The notes under the pieces are model-generated. The model saw only the letters and a list, made by a program, of their open reading frames with translations, was not told where the DNA came from and searched no databases. Of a stretch of DNA of 64,000 bases, positions 4,200 through 54,093 are shown in pieces. Within the stretch, counting starts at the first letter, position 1. The number at the start of each line of letters is the position of its first letter. The translations under genes and the position numbers were made by a program. Source of the stretch: Undaria pinnatifida (taxonomy: Eukaryota; Sar; Phaeophyceae; Laminariales; Alariaceae); assembly GCA_012845835.1 (NCBI GenBank), contig JABAKD010000027.1, forward strand, positions 15,596,073 to 15,660,072, in the 5' to 3' direction.

Positions 4200-4468
4200 T
4201 GTAAGGCTATAGGTGGGGACACAGAGTGCCCCCTGCAGGTCTGCCAATTGAGCAGGTCCTCGGAGAGTACTCACTTTCATTTCCTTCGTAGAGACGTTGC
4301 TTTATTCGATTCCATCAGAGTCCCGGATAGCTTCTGAGATCGGAGGCACGTGCCTCCGATCTATTTCCTAACTTTCCCGAATATAAAACGCCAATCTTAT
4401 CATACGAAACCCATCCAAATGATATCAAACTCGGACACTTACAGGCCTTTCGAGGCCGTATCTTAACA
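4200..4468 (-). repeat. TRIM LTR (3' LTR in element sense)
   Basis: This 269 bp terminal repeat contains a perfect 26 bp palindrome at 4337-4362, centred on GGCACGTGCC, and a GGCCTTTCGAGGCC hairpin near its outer end. It matches 4910-5179, 44515-44784, 53546-53799 and 53834-54093. Confidence 0.85.
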
Positions 4469-4909
4469 CTAGCCCACCCTGAGGAGCCGCATATGCAGAA
4501 ATATGGGAGATTCGGGGAAACTTTGATTCTACGAACTAAACCATGAGTCGAGGATGCGGCTCCTCGAAACCCACTCCCACACATCTAACGGTCTGGCTAT
4601 GGAGCCAGGAACACGCGAAGAAAAGCAGTTGAAAGAAACGCAGACCCTTCAACAAGGCAAAAGTCACCCATCAAAAACCTGCCGCGTGCCGCCGGTGTGG
4701 CGGGGGGGGGCAGAAAATGCTCTAGAACCTGTCGCATACCGCCGGTGTGGCGGGGGGGGCAGGAAAGGCTCTACGGCAAACCAATCACAGAAAAGGTACT
4801 ATGGCGAGGCGAGCTCTCGTCGATATGGAGGGGAACACAGGCGCTAACACAAGAGAGAAGTCATGCGAAAAAACTCCCGCGGGCCATCGGTTCTGCCGAC
4901 GACGCCATT

Positions 4910-5179
4910 TGTAAGGTTATAGGGTGGGGACACAGAGTGCCCCCTGCAGGTCTGTCAATTGAGCAGGTCCTCGGAGAGTACTCAATTTATTCGCCTTCGT
5001 AGAGACGTTGCTTTATTCGATTCCACCAGAGCCCAAGATAGCTTCTGAGATCGGAGGCACGTTCCTTCGATCTATTTCCTAACTTTCCCGAATATAAAAC
5101 GCCAATCTTATCATACGAAACCCATCCAAATGATCTCAAACTCGAATACTTACAGGCCTTTCGAGGCCGTATCTTAACC
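4910..5179 (-). repeat. TRIM LTR (5' LTR in element sense)
   Basis: This is the second copy of the terminal repeat. The primer-binding site follows immediately on the - strand (4893-4907). The 26 bp palindrome of the partner is damaged here (GGCACGTTCC). Confidence 0.85.
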
Positions 5180-44407: not shown

Positions 44408-44514
44408 ACGTTGTTCTTGCTCTACTTCTACTACTACTACTACTACTACTACTAGTCTACTACTACTACTACTACTACTAGTCTACTACTACTAGTCTAC
44501 TACTACTACTACTA
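44408..44514 (+). repeat. (CTA)n microsatellite abutting a TRIM LTR
   Basis: Impure (CTA)n with GTCTAC interruptions ends exactly at the TGTTAAG of the LTR. Confidence 0.85.
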
Positions 44515-44784
44515 TGTTAAGATACGGCCTCGAAAGGCCTGTAATTATCCGAATTTGAGATCATTTGGATGGGTTTCATATGATAAGGTTGGCGTTTTAT
44601 ATTCGGGAAAGTTAGGAAATAAATTGGAGGCACGTGCCTCCGATCTCGGAAGCCATCCGGGGCTCTGGTGGAATCGAATAAAGCAACGTCTCTACGAAGA
44701 AAAAGAAAGTGAGTGTTCTCCGAGGACCTGCTCAATTGGCAGACCTGCAGGGAGCAATCTGTGTCCCCACCCCATAGCCTTTCA
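44515..44784 (+). repeat. TRIM LTR, + orientation
   Basis: TGTTAAGATACGG..CCTTTCA, followed after two bases by the primer-binding site TGGCGTCGTCGGCAGGACC (44787). AATAAA and a TATA-like TTTATATTC are present. A tRNA-3'-half-like stem-loop (GTGGGTTCAAATCCCAC, then ATCCACCA, about 44821-44845) follows, but no matching 5' half exists. Confidence 0.85.
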
Positions 44785-44967
44785 AATGGCGTCGTCGGCA
44801 GGACCATGGGTTTTTGGGTCGTGGGTTCAAATCCCACATCCACCATAAAAAACTTTTTCAGATTTTCCCCATGTCGAACTTGATTAATACTCTCCCCGGT
44901 ATCCCCAGGAAATGAAACGGCTTGGATACATTGACAGGTCCGCCCGTATATCCGACCGACCTGCTAT

Positions 44968-45030: not shown

Positions 45031-45274
45031 ATAAGGCTTATTTTGGATAAGATATTGGTTAACCTTTTGCAAGTGGTCAAACGGACAAATACCGCACTAA
45101 TACCTTAAAAAAAGCAGGGGGATCGGCAGGACAAAAAGAGAAGAAAAATGGAAAGAACCGCCCCAAAACCCGACGAAGACTCTCAGGACACTACGAACAA
45201 CCCTAAGACAAAGACTTAAAACTTATAACCCCAAAAATTGAAGAACTATCGAGGAGCGGGCGGCGGCTTGAAAG

Positions 45275-46261
45275 TCAACTGGCCACGGCCGCGCCTCGAG
45301 ATTCGTCTACGATGCGTTGGATTCCCCGAGGAAACGCACTGGCGATGTGAACTTGCAAGCACCAAGAACCTCGTACGGCTCCCGTTGAAGTCGTGTAGCG
45401 CGCCGGGGGAAGAGGAAGTTTAATCGGTCCCGGGTCGTCCAGACAGCGGACCAGGTATACCTTGTCCTCGGTAGTGCTCGCGCTGATTTTTCCAAGCAAC
45501 CATAACCCATCGTCTCCCTTGTACCAAAAGTGGGCTCTCTTAGGAAGTACTGTGTCGTGGTAGCGACGAAGCCAATCGGCGCGGGGAACACAGGCGTAGC
45601 CCGGCGCTAGGAAACGTTCCCCGTTGTTGCGGGAGAGCTCGCGCTGTGCCACCCCGATCCGCATTCGGCGGTACAGGCGGTTGGTATGGCCGTCCTGGCC
45701 CGGGGTTCCGGCCCAATACCGCAAGATGCGGGAGCGGGAGAGGTGGAGGTCCATTTCCCGCTCCCAGAAAGGTTCGGAGAGTCCCGCTCAATGCGTCCTG
45801 TATAGCACCGCGATGACGCCCCCTCGCCCCCGTACCGACTGATGACCAGTGATCTGCTCCACCTCCAGCCGTTGGAGGGGAGTCGAAATGTCGTCTTGAG
45901 TGACGTGGTACGGCGGGGACTTCTTGGAAAAATTGTTGAGCACGTACTGCGTCAGCCCCGCCGGTAGGTATTTGGGCATGTCCCCGCTGTCGTGGGGGTT
46001 GGCGCAGGGTTTGCAGCGCTCGATGGCCACACGCCGACAAGCGTCCGAACCGGGCAGGTCGGAAGGGAGATCCAAATAGAGGAGGTTGCTCCCGAGCGGC
46101 AAACCGTCCGGGGTCTCGGCGGCGGAGCAGGGACCGACGGCCAGGTACAGGCCCGTCCAATTAAGCGCGAGTTTGGCCTTGAGTACCTTGGCGTCGGTGT
46201 TCGCCTTCACACCCTGGCGAATGGTAGAGGCAGAATTGTACACCCATGCCCAACCACCCAC
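45275..46261 (-). pseudogene. Polyprotein C-terminal domains
   Basis: Frame 46261-45788 (VYNSASTIRQGVKANTDAKV.., LALNWTGLYLAVG) resembles the post-integrase KxxxxWxGPY region. Frame 45754-45275 contains HFWYKGDDGLWLLGKISAST and VYLVRCLDDPGPIKLPLPPA, which read like a small beta-rich (chromo/tudor-like) module. The two parts are in different frames. An 83 bp tandem duplication (46256-46421) lies at the upstream edge. Confidence 0.6.
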
Positions 46262-46268
46262 AGCGAAG

Positions 46269-48113
46269 TTAGGTGCTGGACGCAGCGCGTCGGCAAGGGC
46301 GGAGTTCTGCGGTTAACACGGGAAACGGTGAGGGTGTGACCCACAGCGAAGTTAGGTGCTGAACGCAGCGCGTTGGCAAGGGCGGAGTTTCTGCGGTTAA
46401 CCAGGAAACGGTGAGGGCGTGGTGTGCGTGGACAATGCCGTTCGCGCGCTTTTGCCGGTCGGTGGCCGAGTCGCAATAGGCCAGGTGGTCACGGGCCAGA
46501 CTCTGGTGTCCCACGACACCAGTGCGATCGCAAACCGTCAGGGGGAGCCGTGGGAGTCTGCCCATGTGGACCTCGTTGGGCGCCAGACCCATCGCCGCGC
46601 TGACGATATTGTTGTGAGCGAATTCTACGTGAGGCAGATGCAAGTCCCAATCGTCTTGTCGCTCGTTGACGACCATAGCCAGCATTTAGGCCATAGTGTG
46701 GTTTACCCGCTCAATGCCCCCGTTACAGCCGGGATGATAGGAGCTTGTAGCAAGCTTGTGCACACCCAACAGCTGATATACAGCTTGTGAAAGCTTGGAG
46801 CAGAACTGCAGTCGGTTGCCCGAGAGTATGGTGCGCGGGCACCCCTACAACGGGATGTATTGGTTCACCAGGATATTGGCTGTACCCTCCGCGGTGAACT
46901 CAGCGGCAGTGACGGGGAACATGTCGGCCCGACGACTGAAGCGATCGTTGAAGAGCAGGATGTAGGTGTTGCCTCGTGGTGTGACCGGAAGGGGGCCGAA
47001 GTAGTCAACACTGACGGCGACACCTGGACCTTCTAGCAGAGGCATTGTGATGATGGGCCAGCGGACAGTCAACCGTGGGGTTTTCCGCACTTGGCACTTC
47101 AAGCAGTGGCGAAGCCACCACCGGGTGCACACATTCATGCCAATCCACCAATGAAAACGCTCCAGCATGCGCAACGTGTGCGTGGTGCCAAGGTGGCAAG
47201 AGGCCGTCGAGTAACAAGCTTGCATGATCCAAGGGCGCATGAGCAGGGGAACGTAGATGCAAACTGGCTCGTCGTTTAGCAGGCAAGCAACTAGCCCCAC
47301 AGAGTTGGGTTTGTCAGACCTTGTTGGCGGCAGCGTCGGGTTACGGACGAGTAGGACGATGTCGTCGTCGGTTGTATGTAGTCGACCCTTACCCGCTAGC
47401 TCCTTGATGTCTGAGAGGGATGGAATATTGTGTGAGGGGTAGCACGCCAAAAAGTCGAGCGGCAGGACCGATGGCCGGCCACCGGTCCTGCCGATAGAGA
47501 CGTAACGCATCATGGCGTGGCACGTCGACTCAGCGTGCTGCTCTCGCTTCCAATCGGCATGTGAATAATGCGCGACGGAATCAGCGAACCGCAATTCAGC
47601 AGCGACGCCGAGGGCGTCCGACCTTGGATGTGCAGTCGGAGTGTCACCAGGAGAAGGCGTGAGCCGTAAAAGAGGAGTTCCCATATAGGCTCTGCGTGGT
47701 CGCGGTCGGACGGTAGTGGCACCATGTGGACCGGCGAGTCGGCAAGAGCAGGGGTCGCGGCGGCGGGCGGAGCCGGCCGCGGCCGTGGGACTCGCGGCGG
47801 GGTTGTACCTTGTCTGGAAGATGGCCGAGGAGCCCCGCCGGGCCCGAATCCATGATCTACAGCGGGGGTGCATTACCCGTTGTTGTCGCTGGTCGTCGGC
47901 GCGTCGTCGACGACGGAGGGGCTGGAGTGCCAAGCAAGGCGGAGACGGACACAGTCGAACCGGTGGTCGCGGCAGGGGCCAACTCCTGTGTAGAACTCCG
48001 GGATAGATAAGTCGGTTGCGCGATGGGCATCGCTGCAGCCAGGGCTTCTGCGAAGCCCGTGCCGCCCTCGATGGGTATGGCAAAAACCGAAGCGACAACG
48101 GTGTCAGCGGCAA
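46269..48113 (-). pseudogene. Integrase, broken
   Basis: The frame 48113-46845 holds an H2C2-type zinc-binding N terminus (CHLGTTHTLRML..C.KC) and the core start VDYFGPLPVTPRGNTYILLF. After a TAG at 46845-46847 it resumes with CPRTILSGNRLQFCSKLSQA, HPGCNGGIERVNHT, a TAA at 46686-46688, and then NERQDDWDLHLPHVEFAHNN. The first Asp (DYF) and the Glu (IER) survive. The second acidic residue reads Gly (SGNR in place of SDN-type), so catalysis is lost. Confidence 0.85.
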
Positions 48114-48559: not shown

Positions 48560-48990
48560 GCAGGCTCTGGAAAACGGGCCGGAATAATCGGCGATGTCGT
48601 TGGCGCTGCCTTTGGGGTGGTCGAGTGTGAAATCGAACGCGGTGACGAACTCAAGCTACCGCTGGACTCGTGCATCGAGGGTCCCCATTTCGCCAATGCT
48701 CTCCTGTGTCTTGCGGCCGGAGGATATGCGGAACTTTGTTCCCCACAGTACCGTCGGAGGCGTTTGGGAGCCCAAACAATGCTGCCGGTCCCCAAATCTA
48801 GAGGAGTCCAGTGCCTCTCCGAGTCGAGCGTTGCTCAACTGATGTACGCGATTTTCATAGTGAGCGAAACGTCGTCCAGCGTCACAGTACCCTCGTTGAA
48901 ACAGGGGCCGTGTTCTGACAGCGCAAGGTCAGGGCCGACGCCAGAAGCTATCTCCAAAACTCCATGGCTTTTAATTGGCCAACGCGTCCG
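48560..48990 (-). pseudogene. RNase H remnant of pol
   Basis: ATLDSERHWTPLDLGTGSIV and WAPKRLR, then in another frame GTKFRISSGRKTQES and LEFVTAFDFTLDHPKGSAND, match the C-terminal part of a Ty3/gypsy RNase H. SGRK stands where a catalytic SDHK-type Asp is usual. It is interrupted by stops (for example TGA before ATLDSE, TAG before LEFVTA) and by two frameshifts. Confidence 0.7.
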
Positions 48991-49129: not shown

Positions 49130-49632
49130 CCGGTCCGGTCTCATTGTCGCCAATAGCTTCGCAAACGGTAGAAAGTGCCTCACCGAGCAAGCTTTTCCTC
49201 TCCCCTGGCATGGGTTGTTGGCCCTGGGACCATCCGCCCGGAGACCAATGCCCCACACTGGGTTCAGATGGCTGGATTCAGCCAGAAGCTTGTTGTCAGA
49301 GCTCAAAAGATGATTTTTTTATGGCTGGATTCTGCGTGAATTTGGCGTAGGTGCCAGATAACACGGCGTTTTGCTTCTCCCTGTCCCCAACACCGGAGTC
49401 AAAGTTGCGCACGCCTCGACCGATGCGTTTGCGTGTGCTTGGACTAGCGATGACATGATGAGCCCCACTGCTCGATGGTCTGGGAAAAACCTGGTCTTTT
49501 CGGCCATCATGTACTGCTCCGCGCAAGAACATGGCACGTCGTTCACGGCAAATGACGAAGGAGACCACGGTGGAAAATAGGATGGGGGCTGCCAGAATAA
49601 CGCCACTTTGTCTGTGGAGTATTCGAGAGAAG
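49130..49632 (-). pseudogene. NADAR-like domain, three frameshifts
   Basis: The domain is readable in four successive - strand frames: LFWQPPSYFPPWSPSSFAVN and CAEQYMMAEKTRFF (49620-49460); IASPSTRKRIGRGVRNFDSG and AVLSGTYAKFTQNPAIKK (49455-49310); DNKLLAESSHLNPVWGIGLR and PRANNPC (49303-49205); SLLGEALSTVCEAI (49200-49150). These are the ordered hallmarks of the NADAR family: SNF/aEQYMM..K, GR.V.NFD, KF.QN, Ea.p.d.vWGIG and W.G.N.LG. NADAR proteins are linked to NAD/ADP-ribose chemistry, including removal of ADP-ribose from guanine. The breaks near 49455, 49310 and 49200 mean this copy is dead; the middle one is at an A7 run. Confidence 0.85.
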
Positions 49633-49655
49633 GGTCAAAAACCGTGTTGGAATTT

Positions 49656-50270
49656 GGGCCTGCAATGTCCCCGTCCGGGAACACCAGGCCTCGGGAGCAC
49701 GACGCGAATCCGAACCCGTGGTTTCTCGCCTCGGGTCTTTCTTCGCTCGTTGGCGGAAAGGCGCGAGAATCCGCTTTAACTGCGCCCGAAAAATGGCAAA
49801 AAACGATGGTGCCAACCGGTCGGTAGCCTCGTTGGACATTCGTGGGTCTGCAATGTCCCCTTCTGGGAACACCAGCCCTCGGCTCTTTGGACTTGTAGTG
49901 TCCCGTTGCAAGAGCACCAGGCTTCGGGATCAAGATGCGAGTCCGAACCCGGGGATTCTCGCCTCGGGTCCTCCTCACTCGCTGGCGGAAACTCGTAAAA
50001 AGCCGCCCTCGCTGCACCCGAAAAAGAGTCCAACACCGACGGTGCCAACCCGTCGGTAGCCTCGTTGGACATTTGGGTCTGCAATGCCCCCCTATGGGAA
50101 CACCAGTCCTCGGCTCTTTGGGCCTGTAGTGTCCCCCTTAGGAACACCAGGCCTCTGGAACACGACGCGAGTCCGAACTCACGGTTTCTCGCCTCGTGTC
50201 CTCTTCGCTCTTTGGCATATAATCGCAAGAAAACTGCGTTAACTGCGCCCGAAGGGGCAGGGGTTCTGAG
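49656..50270 (-). repeat. In-frame 77-codon tandem repeat
   Basis: Landmarks at 49656, 49844 and 50075 (GGGYCTGCAATG) give periods of 188 and 231 bp; 231 is 77 codons and the short unit lacks about 43 bp. The - strand reading repeats EARN..FG.ASCSRGLVF and TDGLAP blocks. A coding-length period suggests a former repetitive protein segment between Gag and the NADAR domain. Confidence 0.65.
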
Positions 50271-51564
50271 CTGTTTCTGCTTGACGAGAGGCGCGATTCT
50301 TCCGTAAATTTACGGGAATAATATCCAGCTGATCAGGCTGGAGGCCGTGGCGTCACCACTGGCCCGTCGCGCAGTGTCGGATCTTCTTCCTGTGCCACTG
50401 GGGCAGACGTAGCCTGAAACACGTGGGTTAGCGTGTTAAATGATGAAGCAGGTTCCGTAGACCCTGTGGGCGCCTTCTGGAGCGGGGCTCGGGCAGGTGG
50501 CAATAATGTTTTTACCCGAGGAGGCTCTTTTCCGTTATGCCTCTTGGAAAAGGGAGACGAGGTAGCTAATCTTGTCGACTCCTCCTTGATGGAAAAAAGG
50601 ACAGAGCACCCGCTGTTATCGCGAGCAAACACGGGATCGAACCTCGCAAAAGATCTCGGTGTTTGAGTGTTGGCCTTCCCACACCTCAAAATCGACCGCC
50701 ACCTCGTGGTCAGAAGAAGTGTTTGAGGGTCAACCGTCCTACACCTCAAACCGACCGCCACCGCCTGGTCAGGGAGAGGGGGAGATGAACACGTTCGCGT
50801 AAAAAGGCGACGCGCCGTCACCGCAGCTGTATTGTTGCGCGTACGTGCATGGGGGGGAGCGCGCAAAGCGCAGGCTCCCGTGCCATGGTTGATGGGGGTG
50901 GCGCTTGGAGCGCGTACCCCCATTGCCGAGTTTATGACGCGGTTGAGGGAAACGGGACTGGAAGCGCGGTTCCCGTCGCCGAACTCAGACCATGACCGAG
51001 GGGAACGTCACTGAAAGCGCGCGTTCTCGCCGTCGAAAAAAATAAAAATACTAAAAATTACCTGGCTGGAGGAGACCACGCTCGAAGCGCTAGTTCCCGC
51101 CGCCGGCACCACGCCGTGAGAATCGTCCGCAGACGGCGTAGGAGCCCGTGGGCTCTTGACAAAGGCAATCTGTGCTGCGTTACTGGACAGGCTAGCAACA
51201 GAAAACGAGCATGTTCTGAAACCAAAATAGGTACCCCCCGACAGTGTTGTCGACGGTGCCGTACCGCTGTCGAGCTGCCGATTGCCGGTACGGAATGTGC
51301 CAAGCTGGCGCGCGTGAGTATTTCCGCCTGGGTTATGGGCGGCTCCAAAACGCATTCGAGGAGCAGGAGCGGAGGCAGAAGAGGCGGGCGAGCGCGGGAT
51401 ACTACCATGGTGATCCGACGTGTACGTGGTATGGTTGTGGCAATTTACCTGGCCCTGATCCTGACGGTACCCTCGCGATTAACCTGAAAGATGGCGACGA
51501 TTTTTCTTGTGGTTGTTCGGCGAGAAGATTTGTCGTCTCGGCGGTAGCAGATCATGCGTGTTTG

Positions 51565-52811
51565 TCAGCGTCGGTGTGCGTCATCGTCGCCAAGTTGGCC
51601 GAGTTCAGGGTTCAAGCAGCCACTGGCAGTAATGAAAGGATGCCTACAATGCTTGGAGGAAAGGTTGTCTTCGTTGCAGTTGAGGTAAAGCCCCCGGTTT
51701 TGTCGGAGGGCATCAGCGCGAGGTGAAAGGAGGCCGCCCCGAAGGGGAGGGTCGTCTGTCTTAAACGACGCGTTAACGGCAAAAACTTCTGCATAATGAT
51801 ACTCTTCTAGTGGCCAGCAGTTTGATGTGTGGTCAAGCCAAGGGTCAGATGAAACATCGATGGGCATGACAGGTGAATGATGGCTCAATCCCATCTGCCA
51901 CGAAAGCGACTGGGACAGTACTGGCCCTGGCCGCACCCATGATCGGCGGGCCGGGGCCCCGACGGGGCGGATGACCGCGCTCCCGTCGAAGAAACAGGGA
52001 GATAAAAAAATGTTTCACCGTTGACGGCAGGTGTTTTACTATGCGCTTAGTCACTAAAAGCCCGCCACATAGCATCCAACGAGGCGCATGGCCGCGGGTC
52101 CGTTGCCTTCGAAACAGGGCACAACGCAGACAGGAGAGTCGGAAATTGCTCATTCGCCGCCACCCGAACCACTGCCAACACCACATCCGTCCCTAGAGAC
52201 AAAACACGCCCACTCCCCGTAGCGGTCGACGCACGTACGCGAAATTCCCGACCGAAATCAGAAAAAGGCATGCCGTTATACGTTCCAAAAGTATGCAACT
52301 TAGTGTAGACCTCCTTCGTGTCAACGCCGTCGAAGTGCGTCATCAGCAGACGCAACAGGAGGGTGGAAGACTCAGGCCCAGATGCTCCTCCTGCCATGGC
52401 TCTTGACACCTCTTGCCTGCTACCACGGCCACCTCGCTGTGGTCGGTGCTTGAGGACGAAGACGAGCGGGAGGAGGTTGACGAGCCGTCCCACGCTGAAA
52501 GCACTCTCGCGCCATTGCTCCGCCCTCCGTTGCCTCCGCCAGAGCTGCGGCCAACTGCCCCGGTTGTTGGACCAAAATTGCCCCCTCGGCGGCGCCGTCA
52601 GCCACACCAGCACCCGATGCGCCTCCCCCGCCTCCACCACCGCTGTCACCCCCGCGGCGGTGGTGGTGGTCGCCACCCCCACCATTTTTGCCGCCATCCC
52701 CACAATTTTTTCCGCCACCCCCACGATTGCGGTCCCCGCGGTCGTGACTGTCGCTGCGTCGCCATTTCCCCCAGTTTCATTCTGCCAAATCTTCCTCCGG
52801 AGTTCGGCCAA
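51565..52811 (-). pseudogene. Gag-like region with degraded zinc knuckle
   Basis: The 254-codon frame 52811-52047 contains THFDGVDTKEVYTKLHTFGT and then SDFGREFRVRASTA, reading like a capsid-type region. It stops at 52047, and the sequence continues in other frames to 51565. There YLNCNEDNLSSKHC has the spacing of a CX2CX4HX4C knuckle with the first Cys and the His changed. The first part (52811 to about 52560) is low-complexity Val/Ala/Thr and may be untranslated leader. Confidence 0.6.
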
Positions 52812-53119
52812 AAGACAGGTCGGGGTTCGGGTAAAACGCCGCTATCTGAGGCTCAGGGCTGTCGCTTTTTCATCATTGTTCAAATTTGCCCTGCCGACGC
52901 CCTCCTCAGCCCAGAGCCGGGGGGCGATCAGGGTACCCTGTTCGCGCGTAACGTGGTACAGGGCTATGTACGGGTCTGTGTGTAATCTTTTATCTTTTGT
53001 GTGTTGTATTTTTTCTACTTTGTTTTTTCGACCAAACATTTTCCCCCCTCGCGGGGCTGTAGGTGTTGCCACCTTCCATCCCGGCTATTTGTAGTTTACT
53101 CGTCTTACCCCCCGGCATG

Positions 53120-53545
53120 CCGATGGCCCGCGGGAGGTTTTTCGCATTACTTCTCCCTTGTGTTAGCGCCTGTGTTCCCCTCCATATCGACGAGGGCTCG
53201 CCTCGCCATAGCACCATTTCTGTGGTTGATTTGCCGTAGAGCCTTCCCTGCCCCCCCCCGCTACACCGGCGGTATGCGGCAGGTTCTAGAGCCTTTTCTG
53301 CCCCCCCCGCCACACCGGCGGCACGCGGCAGGTTTTTGATGGGTGACTTTTGCCTTGTTGTAGGGTCTGCGTTTCTTTCAACTGCTTTTCTTCGCGTGTT
53401 TCTGGCTCCATAGCCAGACCGTTAGAGGTGTGGGAGTGGGTTTCGAGGAGCCGCATCCTCGACTCATGGTCTTGTTCGTAGAACCGGAGTTTCCCCGAAT
53501 TTCCCATATTTCTGCATATATATGCGGCTCATCAGGGTAGGCTAG
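53120..53545 (+). mobile_element. TRIM interior, right part
   Basis: Reverse complement of 4469-4889 with small changes, including the paired roughly 48 bp GC-rich units and the polypurine AGGGTAGGCTAG before the LTR. Confidence 0.85.
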
Positions 53546-53799
53546 TGTTAAGATACGGCCTCGAAAGGCCTGTACTTACACGAACTTGATATCATTTGGA
53601 TGGGTTTCGTATGATAAGGTATAAAGTTAGGAAATAGATCGGAGGCACGAGCCTTCGATCTCGGAAGCCATCCGGGGCTCTGTTGGAATCGAATAAAGCA
53701 ACGTCTCTACGAAGGGAAAGAAACTGAGTCCTCTCCGGGGATCTGCTCAATTGGCAGACCTGCAGGGGGCACTCTGTGTCCCCACCCTTTAACCTTACA
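53546..53799 (+). repeat. TRIM LTR
   Basis: TGTTAAGATACGG..CCTTACA; lacks about 15 bp (TTGGCG..ATTCGGG) present in the other copies. Confidence 0.85.
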
Positions 53800-53833
53800 A
53801 CAACAACACGTTTTTACTACTACTACTACTACT

Positions 53834-54093
53834 TGTTAAGATACGGCCTCGAAAGGCCTGTAGGTATCCGAATTTGAGATCATTTGGATGGGTTTCGTAT
53901 GATAAGGTTGGCGGTTTATATTCGGGGAAGTTAGGAATTAGATCGGAGGCACGCGCCTCCGATCTCAGAAGCTATCCCGGGCTCTGGTGGAACAACGGGT
54001 GGAAACGAAGGAACGAAAGTGAGTACTCTCCGAGGACCTGCTCAATTGGCAGACCTGCAGGGGGCACTCTGTGTTCCCACCTTTAATTTAACA
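53834..54093 (+). repeat. TRIM LTR followed by a long PBS-like stretch
   Basis: Begins immediately after (ACT)n (53815-53833) and ends TTTAACA. TGGCGTCGACGGCAGGACAC then GAACCTGCG (54096-54124) is complementary to a plausible tRNA 3' half, including T-arm and CCA. The giant TAC array starts directly after it. Confidence 0.8.

Follow-up and report, generated by a model that had tools for sequence, protein, structure and literature searches.

Architecture, copy number and ligand-site conservation show that the genome of Undaria pinnatifida contains a recently active lineage of Ty3/gypsy retroelements whose Pol regularly includes NADAR as an enzyme domain, placed towards the N-terminus. The DNA analysed here, a contig stretch of 64,000 nucleotides (the window), holds a dead, non-autonomous relic of this NADAR group.

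The relic in the window

The initial annotation described a NADAR-like domain with remnants of Gag on one side and of RNase H/integrase on the other, all on one strand. This arrangement was recovered; its order is that of the unbroken element. All five quoted motifs can be read on the minus strand, where they switch between two frames: AEQYMMAEK (frame 49798-49322), GRGVRNFD together with YAKFTQNPA (49634-49299), PVWGIG (49318-48974) and LLGEAL (49277-48951). The parts of the relic are as follows (L009 and L010 refer to one of the copies dissected below).

51281-52722, minus strand: Gag remnant, later part of gag; 71.5, 70.8 and 62.5% amino acid identity to pieces of the L009 gag
50028-51277, minus strand: Pol N-terminal remnant, upstream of NADAR; 52% amino acid identity over 381 columns (51277-50150), weaker match at 50261-50028
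49648-50022, minus strand: extra Pol N-terminal copies directly before NADAR, at 50022-49797 (226 bp) and 49790-49653 (138 bp)
49150-49640, minus strand: NADAR domain remnant, alternating between two frames; from Pfam, translated match and landmark frames
48852-48858, minus strand: deletion junction; protease motif and whole RVT_1 region gone (L010 1131-3219)
47349-48852, minus strand: RT tail, RNase H and connection remnant; from comparison with the unbroken element
45278-47348, minus strand: integrase and C-terminal remnant; 90.5, 92.6 and 93.2% amino acid identity (three long pieces)
44513-44797, plus strand: LTR copy, opposite to the coding remnant; 88-90% identity to the 267-bp L009 LTR
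52818-53792, plus strand: 3' region of the element with LTR (53546-53792), opposite to the coding remnant; 84.7% identity to L010 6764-7717
53834-54093, plus strand: second adjacent LTR copy, opposite to the coding remnant; 91% identity to the L009 LTR

Comparison of the window frames with the NADAR profile (PF08719, curated cut-off 35.1 bits) gave a divided result: three of the four pieces matched with 30.8, 27.6 and 17.5 bits (E 4e-7, 4e-6 and 5e-3), but each remained under the cut-off, and the fourth had no Pfam match. The NADAR domain of an unbroken copy from the same genome, used as query, matched the window at 49597-49193 (E 4e-36) and 49448-49152 (E 4e-23). Both extra Pol N-terminal copies correspond to L009 8637-8860, a stretch already covered by window positions 50715-50024. 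The junction 48858/48852 skips 2.1 kb of the unbroken element, including the protease motif (L010 1188) and RVT_1 (about L010 2367-2843), so that the RVT_1 region of reverse transcriptase is absent from the window copy; the H2C2 zinc finger of its integrase is still recognised with 36.1 bits. The copy is not itself a functional carrier of NADAR, being instead an RT-less, NADAR-dead derivative.

The LTRs and the 3' region at 44513-44797 and 52818-54093 lie opposite to the relic, either by inversion or as nested copies. At about 52820 the coding remnant joins the opposite LTR-bearing 3' region, and none of the 39 other scored copies of the subfamily described below spans this join; a subfamily-wide rearrangement at this point was therefore rejected. 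Two other places in the genome span the join at 45113 (85 and 83% identity), hence the two ends of the relic may differ in history, and a private rearrangement is claimed for the join at about 52820 only. Two more LTR copies of the same element occur in the window at 4209-4468 and 4897-5178, on the minus strand.

Intact relatives in the same genome

A Pfam search for NADAR in the whole genome (511 Mb, 68 contigs) yielded 1454 first-look candidates, 150 of which were scored; all 150 passed the cut-off, giving at least 150 copies, the best with 176.7 bits compared to the required 35.1. Unbroken frames of more than 2000 amino acids were found in 22 of the 150, nine being of 2473 and five of 2371 amino acids, with eight others. 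The 2473-residue type is called family A and the 2371-residue type family B; L015/L016 is counted with family A as a near variant. Three copies from families A and B (L009/L010, L013/L014 and L015/L016) were dissected piecewise and showed the order gag, Pol N-terminus, NADAR, protease, RVT_1, two RNase H models, H2C2 and rve; in L015/L016 the integrase is in a separate frame. The protease was recognised by a DTGS motif and sub-threshold Pfam hits, and on this basis the intact relatives have the Ty3/gypsy order protease - RT - RNase H - integrase. Gag carries a CCHC motif, with no Pfam match in the dissected copies, and for a C-terminal chromodomain there were only sub-threshold matches (E 0.04-0.19). 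The unbroken NADAR-RT-integrase frames confirm that the domain suspected from the window is real and belongs to a gypsy lineage. The expectation of intact copies with gag, NADAR, RT and integrase in one ORF was borne out for the NADAR-RT-integrase part, but in the dissected copies no single unbroken frame covers both gag and pol.

Five copies were checked for LTRs. The L009/L010 copy has LTRs of 267 bp with TG...CA ends which are 100% identical, and must therefore have been inserted recently; the pair of L015/L016 is 97.5% identical. One further copy has an identical repeat of 92 bp, one a repeat of 487 bp (95.7%) which starts only about 2.2 kb before NADAR, and in one no LTR pair was found. 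In L011/L012 no TG...CA pair like that of L009/L010 was detected. A possible target-site duplication consists of the 4 bp TATA, lying in an AT-rich repeat flank.

The gag and pol of family A share a frame, with one in-frame stop codon between them (L009:7675-7677). A stop at the same place was found in six of the eight copies L001-L008 (L002-L006 and L008) and also in L011; the pattern had no match in L001 and L007, and the more distant copies, L015 and the window, have no stop at this site. Readthrough of the stop codon is a possible way of making Gag-Pol in family A. From the 5' LTR to gag there is an unusually long leader of about 4 kb (L009:1032-5077), which contains no frame of more than 250 codons except one of 300 (873-1772), beginning inside the LTR.

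Derivatives without RT or NADAR

The stretch flanking the deletion was used to score 40 copies, including that in the window, out of 949 candidates. All 39 others have the same RT deletion, with 93-95% identity across the junction; the deletion was thus already present in the source copy. The fourth NADAR landmark is in a different frame from the third in all 21 copies compared (the window and L040-L059), meaning that NADAR was already broken when the subfamily multiplied, and a frame change between the second and third landmarks occurs in 16 of 20 scorable copies. A subfamily without protease and RT, and with NADAR out of frame, presumably multiplied in trans, via the proteins of full elements.

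A search for RT gave 1921 candidates, of which 150 were scored; 12 of these without an adjacent listed NADAR were picked, and 2 kb upstream were inspected; having been selected for this property, the sample carries no frequency information. In five of the 12 the LTR is fused directly to Pol; three or more separate joins are involved, and the pol frames are open over 1753-1908 amino acids. L070 and L071 (family B) apparently share one join, located about 210 bp beyond NADAR; in L072 (family B) it follows directly after NADAR; L073 and L078 (family A) apparently have one in common, about 520 bp past NADAR and beyond the protease motif. The three family B fusions are 99-100% identical to that family and have no gag within the stretch inspected. 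L080 has an internal deletion across NADAR, L081 proved to contain NADAR after all, and L074-L077 and L079 gave no match to gag, NADAR or protease in the 2 kb upstream. Derivatives without a working NADAR have multiplied, and those seen are also without RT, or without gag in the stretch inspected.

Ligand site and selection

The best match of the retroelement NADAR among solved structures is the NADAR of Phytophthora (PDB 8bau, E 1e-14), whose ADP-ribose-binding and catalytic residues are E43, K50, K75, R79, E125, D130 and W133 (PMC11543638). The element has E, K, K, R, E, D and W at these places, the numbering offset of two to the 8bau chain being read from the alignment. The catalytic glutamate (E125) together with E43 and K50, a trait of the YbiA subfamily, is present in families A and B and in one copy of a third type. 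All seven residues occur in each of L001-L008 and in nine of ten examined copies with frames of more than 2000 amino acids; the exception is L025 (2365 amino acids), which has lost K50. E43 is lost in L018 (1429 amino acids), and the site also differs in L031, L036 and L038, which have short frames. L035, representing the third type, which is known from its NADAR alone, has kept all seven. Among the full-length NADARs of database relatives, 38 of 49 keep the complete set, ten differ at one site and one is gapped at two. The predicted model of one such relative, P0043 from the family A clade, is confident (pLDDT 92.3).

Between families A and B the identity is 48.7% for NADAR, 48.5% for the protease region, 79% for RT, 73% for RNase H and 71% for integrase. 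Synonymous sites of NADAR are saturated (pS 0.77) at a pN of 0.37, compared to a pN of 0.15 for RT. Long-term constraint on NADAR is clear. The close pair L010-L016 differs in NADAR by five synonymous and seven non-synonymous changes (dN/dS 0.39; RT 0.125), which are by themselves too few to demonstrate recent constraint.

Database relatives and evolution

A database search with the NADAR-to-RT part as query gave 149 passing proteins, 120 of which were listed. Among the listed ones 94 match NADAR and 26 match NADAR and RT, and 49 contain a full-length NADAR. The domain is present in 53 of the 55 listed proteins with 210 residues or more ahead of the protease region; the two exceptions, P0273 (Ectocarpus) and P0357, had no NADAR by Pfam. 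The query words were taken from the part with NADAR and protease, and this sample accordingly leans towards NADAR carriers. In P0242 and P0244 the domain is in the same place as in the dissected copies. The nearest named eukaryotic relatives of both NADAR and Pol are from Ectocarpus and Pylaiella, and a phage collection gave no match; the NADAR-Gypsy lineage probably belongs to brown algae. The NADAR of family A is also 59-61% identical to stand-alone proteins of Nannocystis.

The relationship between families A and B changes along Pol, numbered here from the beginning of NADAR. As far as about residue 580, family A is closer to P0242 than to family B in seven of nine windows of comparison (A-B 33-55%, A-P0242 39-62%); from residue 541 on it is closer to family B in all six (A-B 71-83%, A-P0242 62-72%), and in the RT tree A and B are sisters (support 92/96, not starred). 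The simplest reading, based on few lineages, suggests recombination between element lineages near the protease/RT border, at about 540-580.

For the NADAR trees, 78 of 240 proteins, those without a full-length domain, were dropped, then near-identical ones, and 85 of 121 rows were then kept; for a later quick tree half of the unlabelled bacterial-side rows were dropped and the retroelement rows were thinned to seven. The careful tree of 54 rows was picked by hand and adds 21 retroelement rows relative to the quick tree of 91 rows. A grouping of families A and B alone was rejected by the AU test (54 rows, p 0.005), and one clade of family A with stand-alone proteins and family B was not (91 rows, p 0.50). 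Grouping of all retroelement and stand-alone brown-algal NADARs together was likewise not rejected, with p 0.65 (91 rows) and 0.19 (54 rows), or 0.12 (54 rows) when the single row of the third type was left out. These comparisons do not reject one common origin for the NADARs of all retroelements. Independent acquisition of the domain by the two families was considered, but is not demonstrated by the trees. One further AU value, 1e-35, was set aside, as the rows named in that test omitted the relatives of family A itself.

The careful tree contains a clade of 29 rows (support 97/89) with family A, other retroelement NADARs and P0047, P0057, P0065 and P0096. The latter four are apparently stand-alone NADAR proteins of brown-algal type, Pylaiella and Ectocarpus being among the sources. 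Their nesting inside the retroelement NADARs is suggested by the later quick tree (supports 85-89) and is not resolved by the careful tree, and a retroelement clade excluding them is not rejected either (AU p 0.47). They may thus have come from retroelements, or the reverse; both directions are compatible with the trees. P0047 and P0065 have an N-terminus rich in Cys and His with a zinc-finger-like pattern, which is absent from the translations searched of L009, L010, L013 and L014. As to a stand-alone NADAR gene in the host, no match to P0065 of more than 57% identity was found among the 150 scored, although introns, or the limit on the number scored, could hide one.

Proposed function

Experiments bear out the view of the initial annotation that NADARs act on ADP-ribosylated guanine, on both types of nucleic acid: they hydrolyse guanine-linked ADP-ribose in single-stranded DNA (PMC11543638) and are the only hydrolase family found active on ADP-ribosylated guanosine bases of RNA (PMC11833690). 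For NADARs in polyproteins of RNA viruses, removal of host-made marks has been proposed (PMC9503650). In the retroelement, the domain would most likely be made as part of Gag-Pol and hence be expected in the particle, where, by the known chemistry of NADARs, it could free guanine bases in the RNA and single-stranded cDNA of the element from ADP-ribose; an adduct there would be expected to block reverse transcription. The window copy would represent a dead derivative of the RT-less, NADAR-broken subfamily, moved by full elements in trans. We favour this reading, that of a regular Pol enzyme removing guanine ADP-ribose from element RNA and cDNA, with a probability of about 0.6. Counted against this reading are the lower conservation of NADAR compared to RT (48.7 versus 79% between families A and B), the few changes in the pair L010-L016, the catalytic losses in L025 and L018, and the two of 55 database relatives without NADAR. 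The lack of a DarT match, or of any recognised guanine-modifying transferase, in the genome also speaks against it, as does the multiplication of derivatives with no working NADAR, although those seen are also without RT or, in the stretch inspected, gag.

A doubtful extension would be a counter-defence against host ADP-ribosylation of guanine in retroelement RNA or cDNA, exchanged between lineages with the protease part, the stand-alone brown-algal NADAR genes having been captured by the host or having been the source. DarT had no match in the genome; a profile search gave one PARP exon over the cut-off and four macrodomain matches over theirs, so that a host writer of such marks is possible.

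Not to be dismissed, if clearly behind the nucleic acid reading, is an action of NADAR on small derivatives of NAD or ADP-ribose, such as host signals or toxic metabolites, and the complete ligand site would fit either substrate. The domain sits in Pol, however, and Pol products act on the nucleic acid of the element itself. Riboflavin intermediates are the substrates of E. coli YbiA, and soluble ADP-ribose derivatives were proposed for phage NADARs (PMC11543638, PMC9503650), whereas a survey of 2022 holds that NADARs in polyproteins of eukaryotic RNA viruses mainly target macromolecules (PMC9503650).

It is rather unlikely that NADAR serves Gag-Pol as a structural or binding module, for packaging, assembly or tethering, with catalysis no longer relevant. 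The domain has diverged to much the same degree as the protease region, and further than RT, and L025 and L018 lost a catalytic residue within long frames, as such a role would allow; yet families A and B have kept all seven site residues despite only 48.7% identity, as have 38 of 49 database relatives. A chance event in which a host NADAR fragment entered one decaying element, as the frame-broken and isolated domain in the window alone would suggest, is excluded by at least 150 genome copies, by long unbroken frames in 22 of the 150 scored, and by the constant position in three dissected copies of families A and B and in P0242 and P0244.

Retention of such a ligand site in a high-copy retroelement lineage predicts host-made ADP-ribose marks on nucleic acids, and these could be searched for directly in brown algae.

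Comparison with known systems

Whether the arrangement had been reported was left open at the outset; it is not new, since a 2025 paper on Ectocarpus describes a NADAR of the YbiA family at the N-terminus of Pol in one of its four Gypsy lineages, suggests horizontal acquisition from bacteria and guesses at a role in RNA processing (PMC12477816). This was the only report found on NADAR in such retroelements, most subscription papers and preprints being outside the scope of the search; the other matches appeared unrelated by title, a Rhizoctonia paper among them containing NADAR only within the name of an author. The Ectocarpus lineage (e.g., Gypsy-12_Ec32) resembles the present one in the position of NADAR; it has a putative C-terminal chromodomain, for which only sub-threshold matches were obtained here, and it is from another genome, the likeness being one of description and not of sequence comparison between elements (PMC12477816). 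Another retrotransposon with a NADAR-like domain is the Tx1 group of Crassostrea gigas, but these are LINEs in which the domain, termed divergent, is in ORF1 and not in a gypsy Pol (PMC12477816).

The NADAR of Phytophthora nicotianae (PDB 8bau) has the same ligand-site residues as the retroelement domain, and its description does not present it as belonging to a mobile element, the word stem transpos being absent from the main text (PMC11543638). Positive-strand RNA viruses have NADAR likewise embedded, within the replication polyprotein, but use an RNA-dependent RNA polymerase and do not integrate, unlike a gypsy element (PMC9503650). The bacterial YbiA-like NADARs of Nannocystis are close in sequence to that of family A but stand alone, and in the DarT1-NADAR and YarT-YbiA pairs NADAR is a stand-alone antitoxin, unlike the retroelement domain (PMC11543638, PMC11125620). 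Beyond the available text of the Ectocarpus report (PMC12477816), the present analysis adds intact copies in a second genome, conservation of the active site, a subfamily which is RT-less and NADAR-dead, derivatives without gag and NADAR, signs that the NADAR-protease part recombined apart from RT, and stand-alone brown-algal NADAR proteins which group with those of the retroelements.
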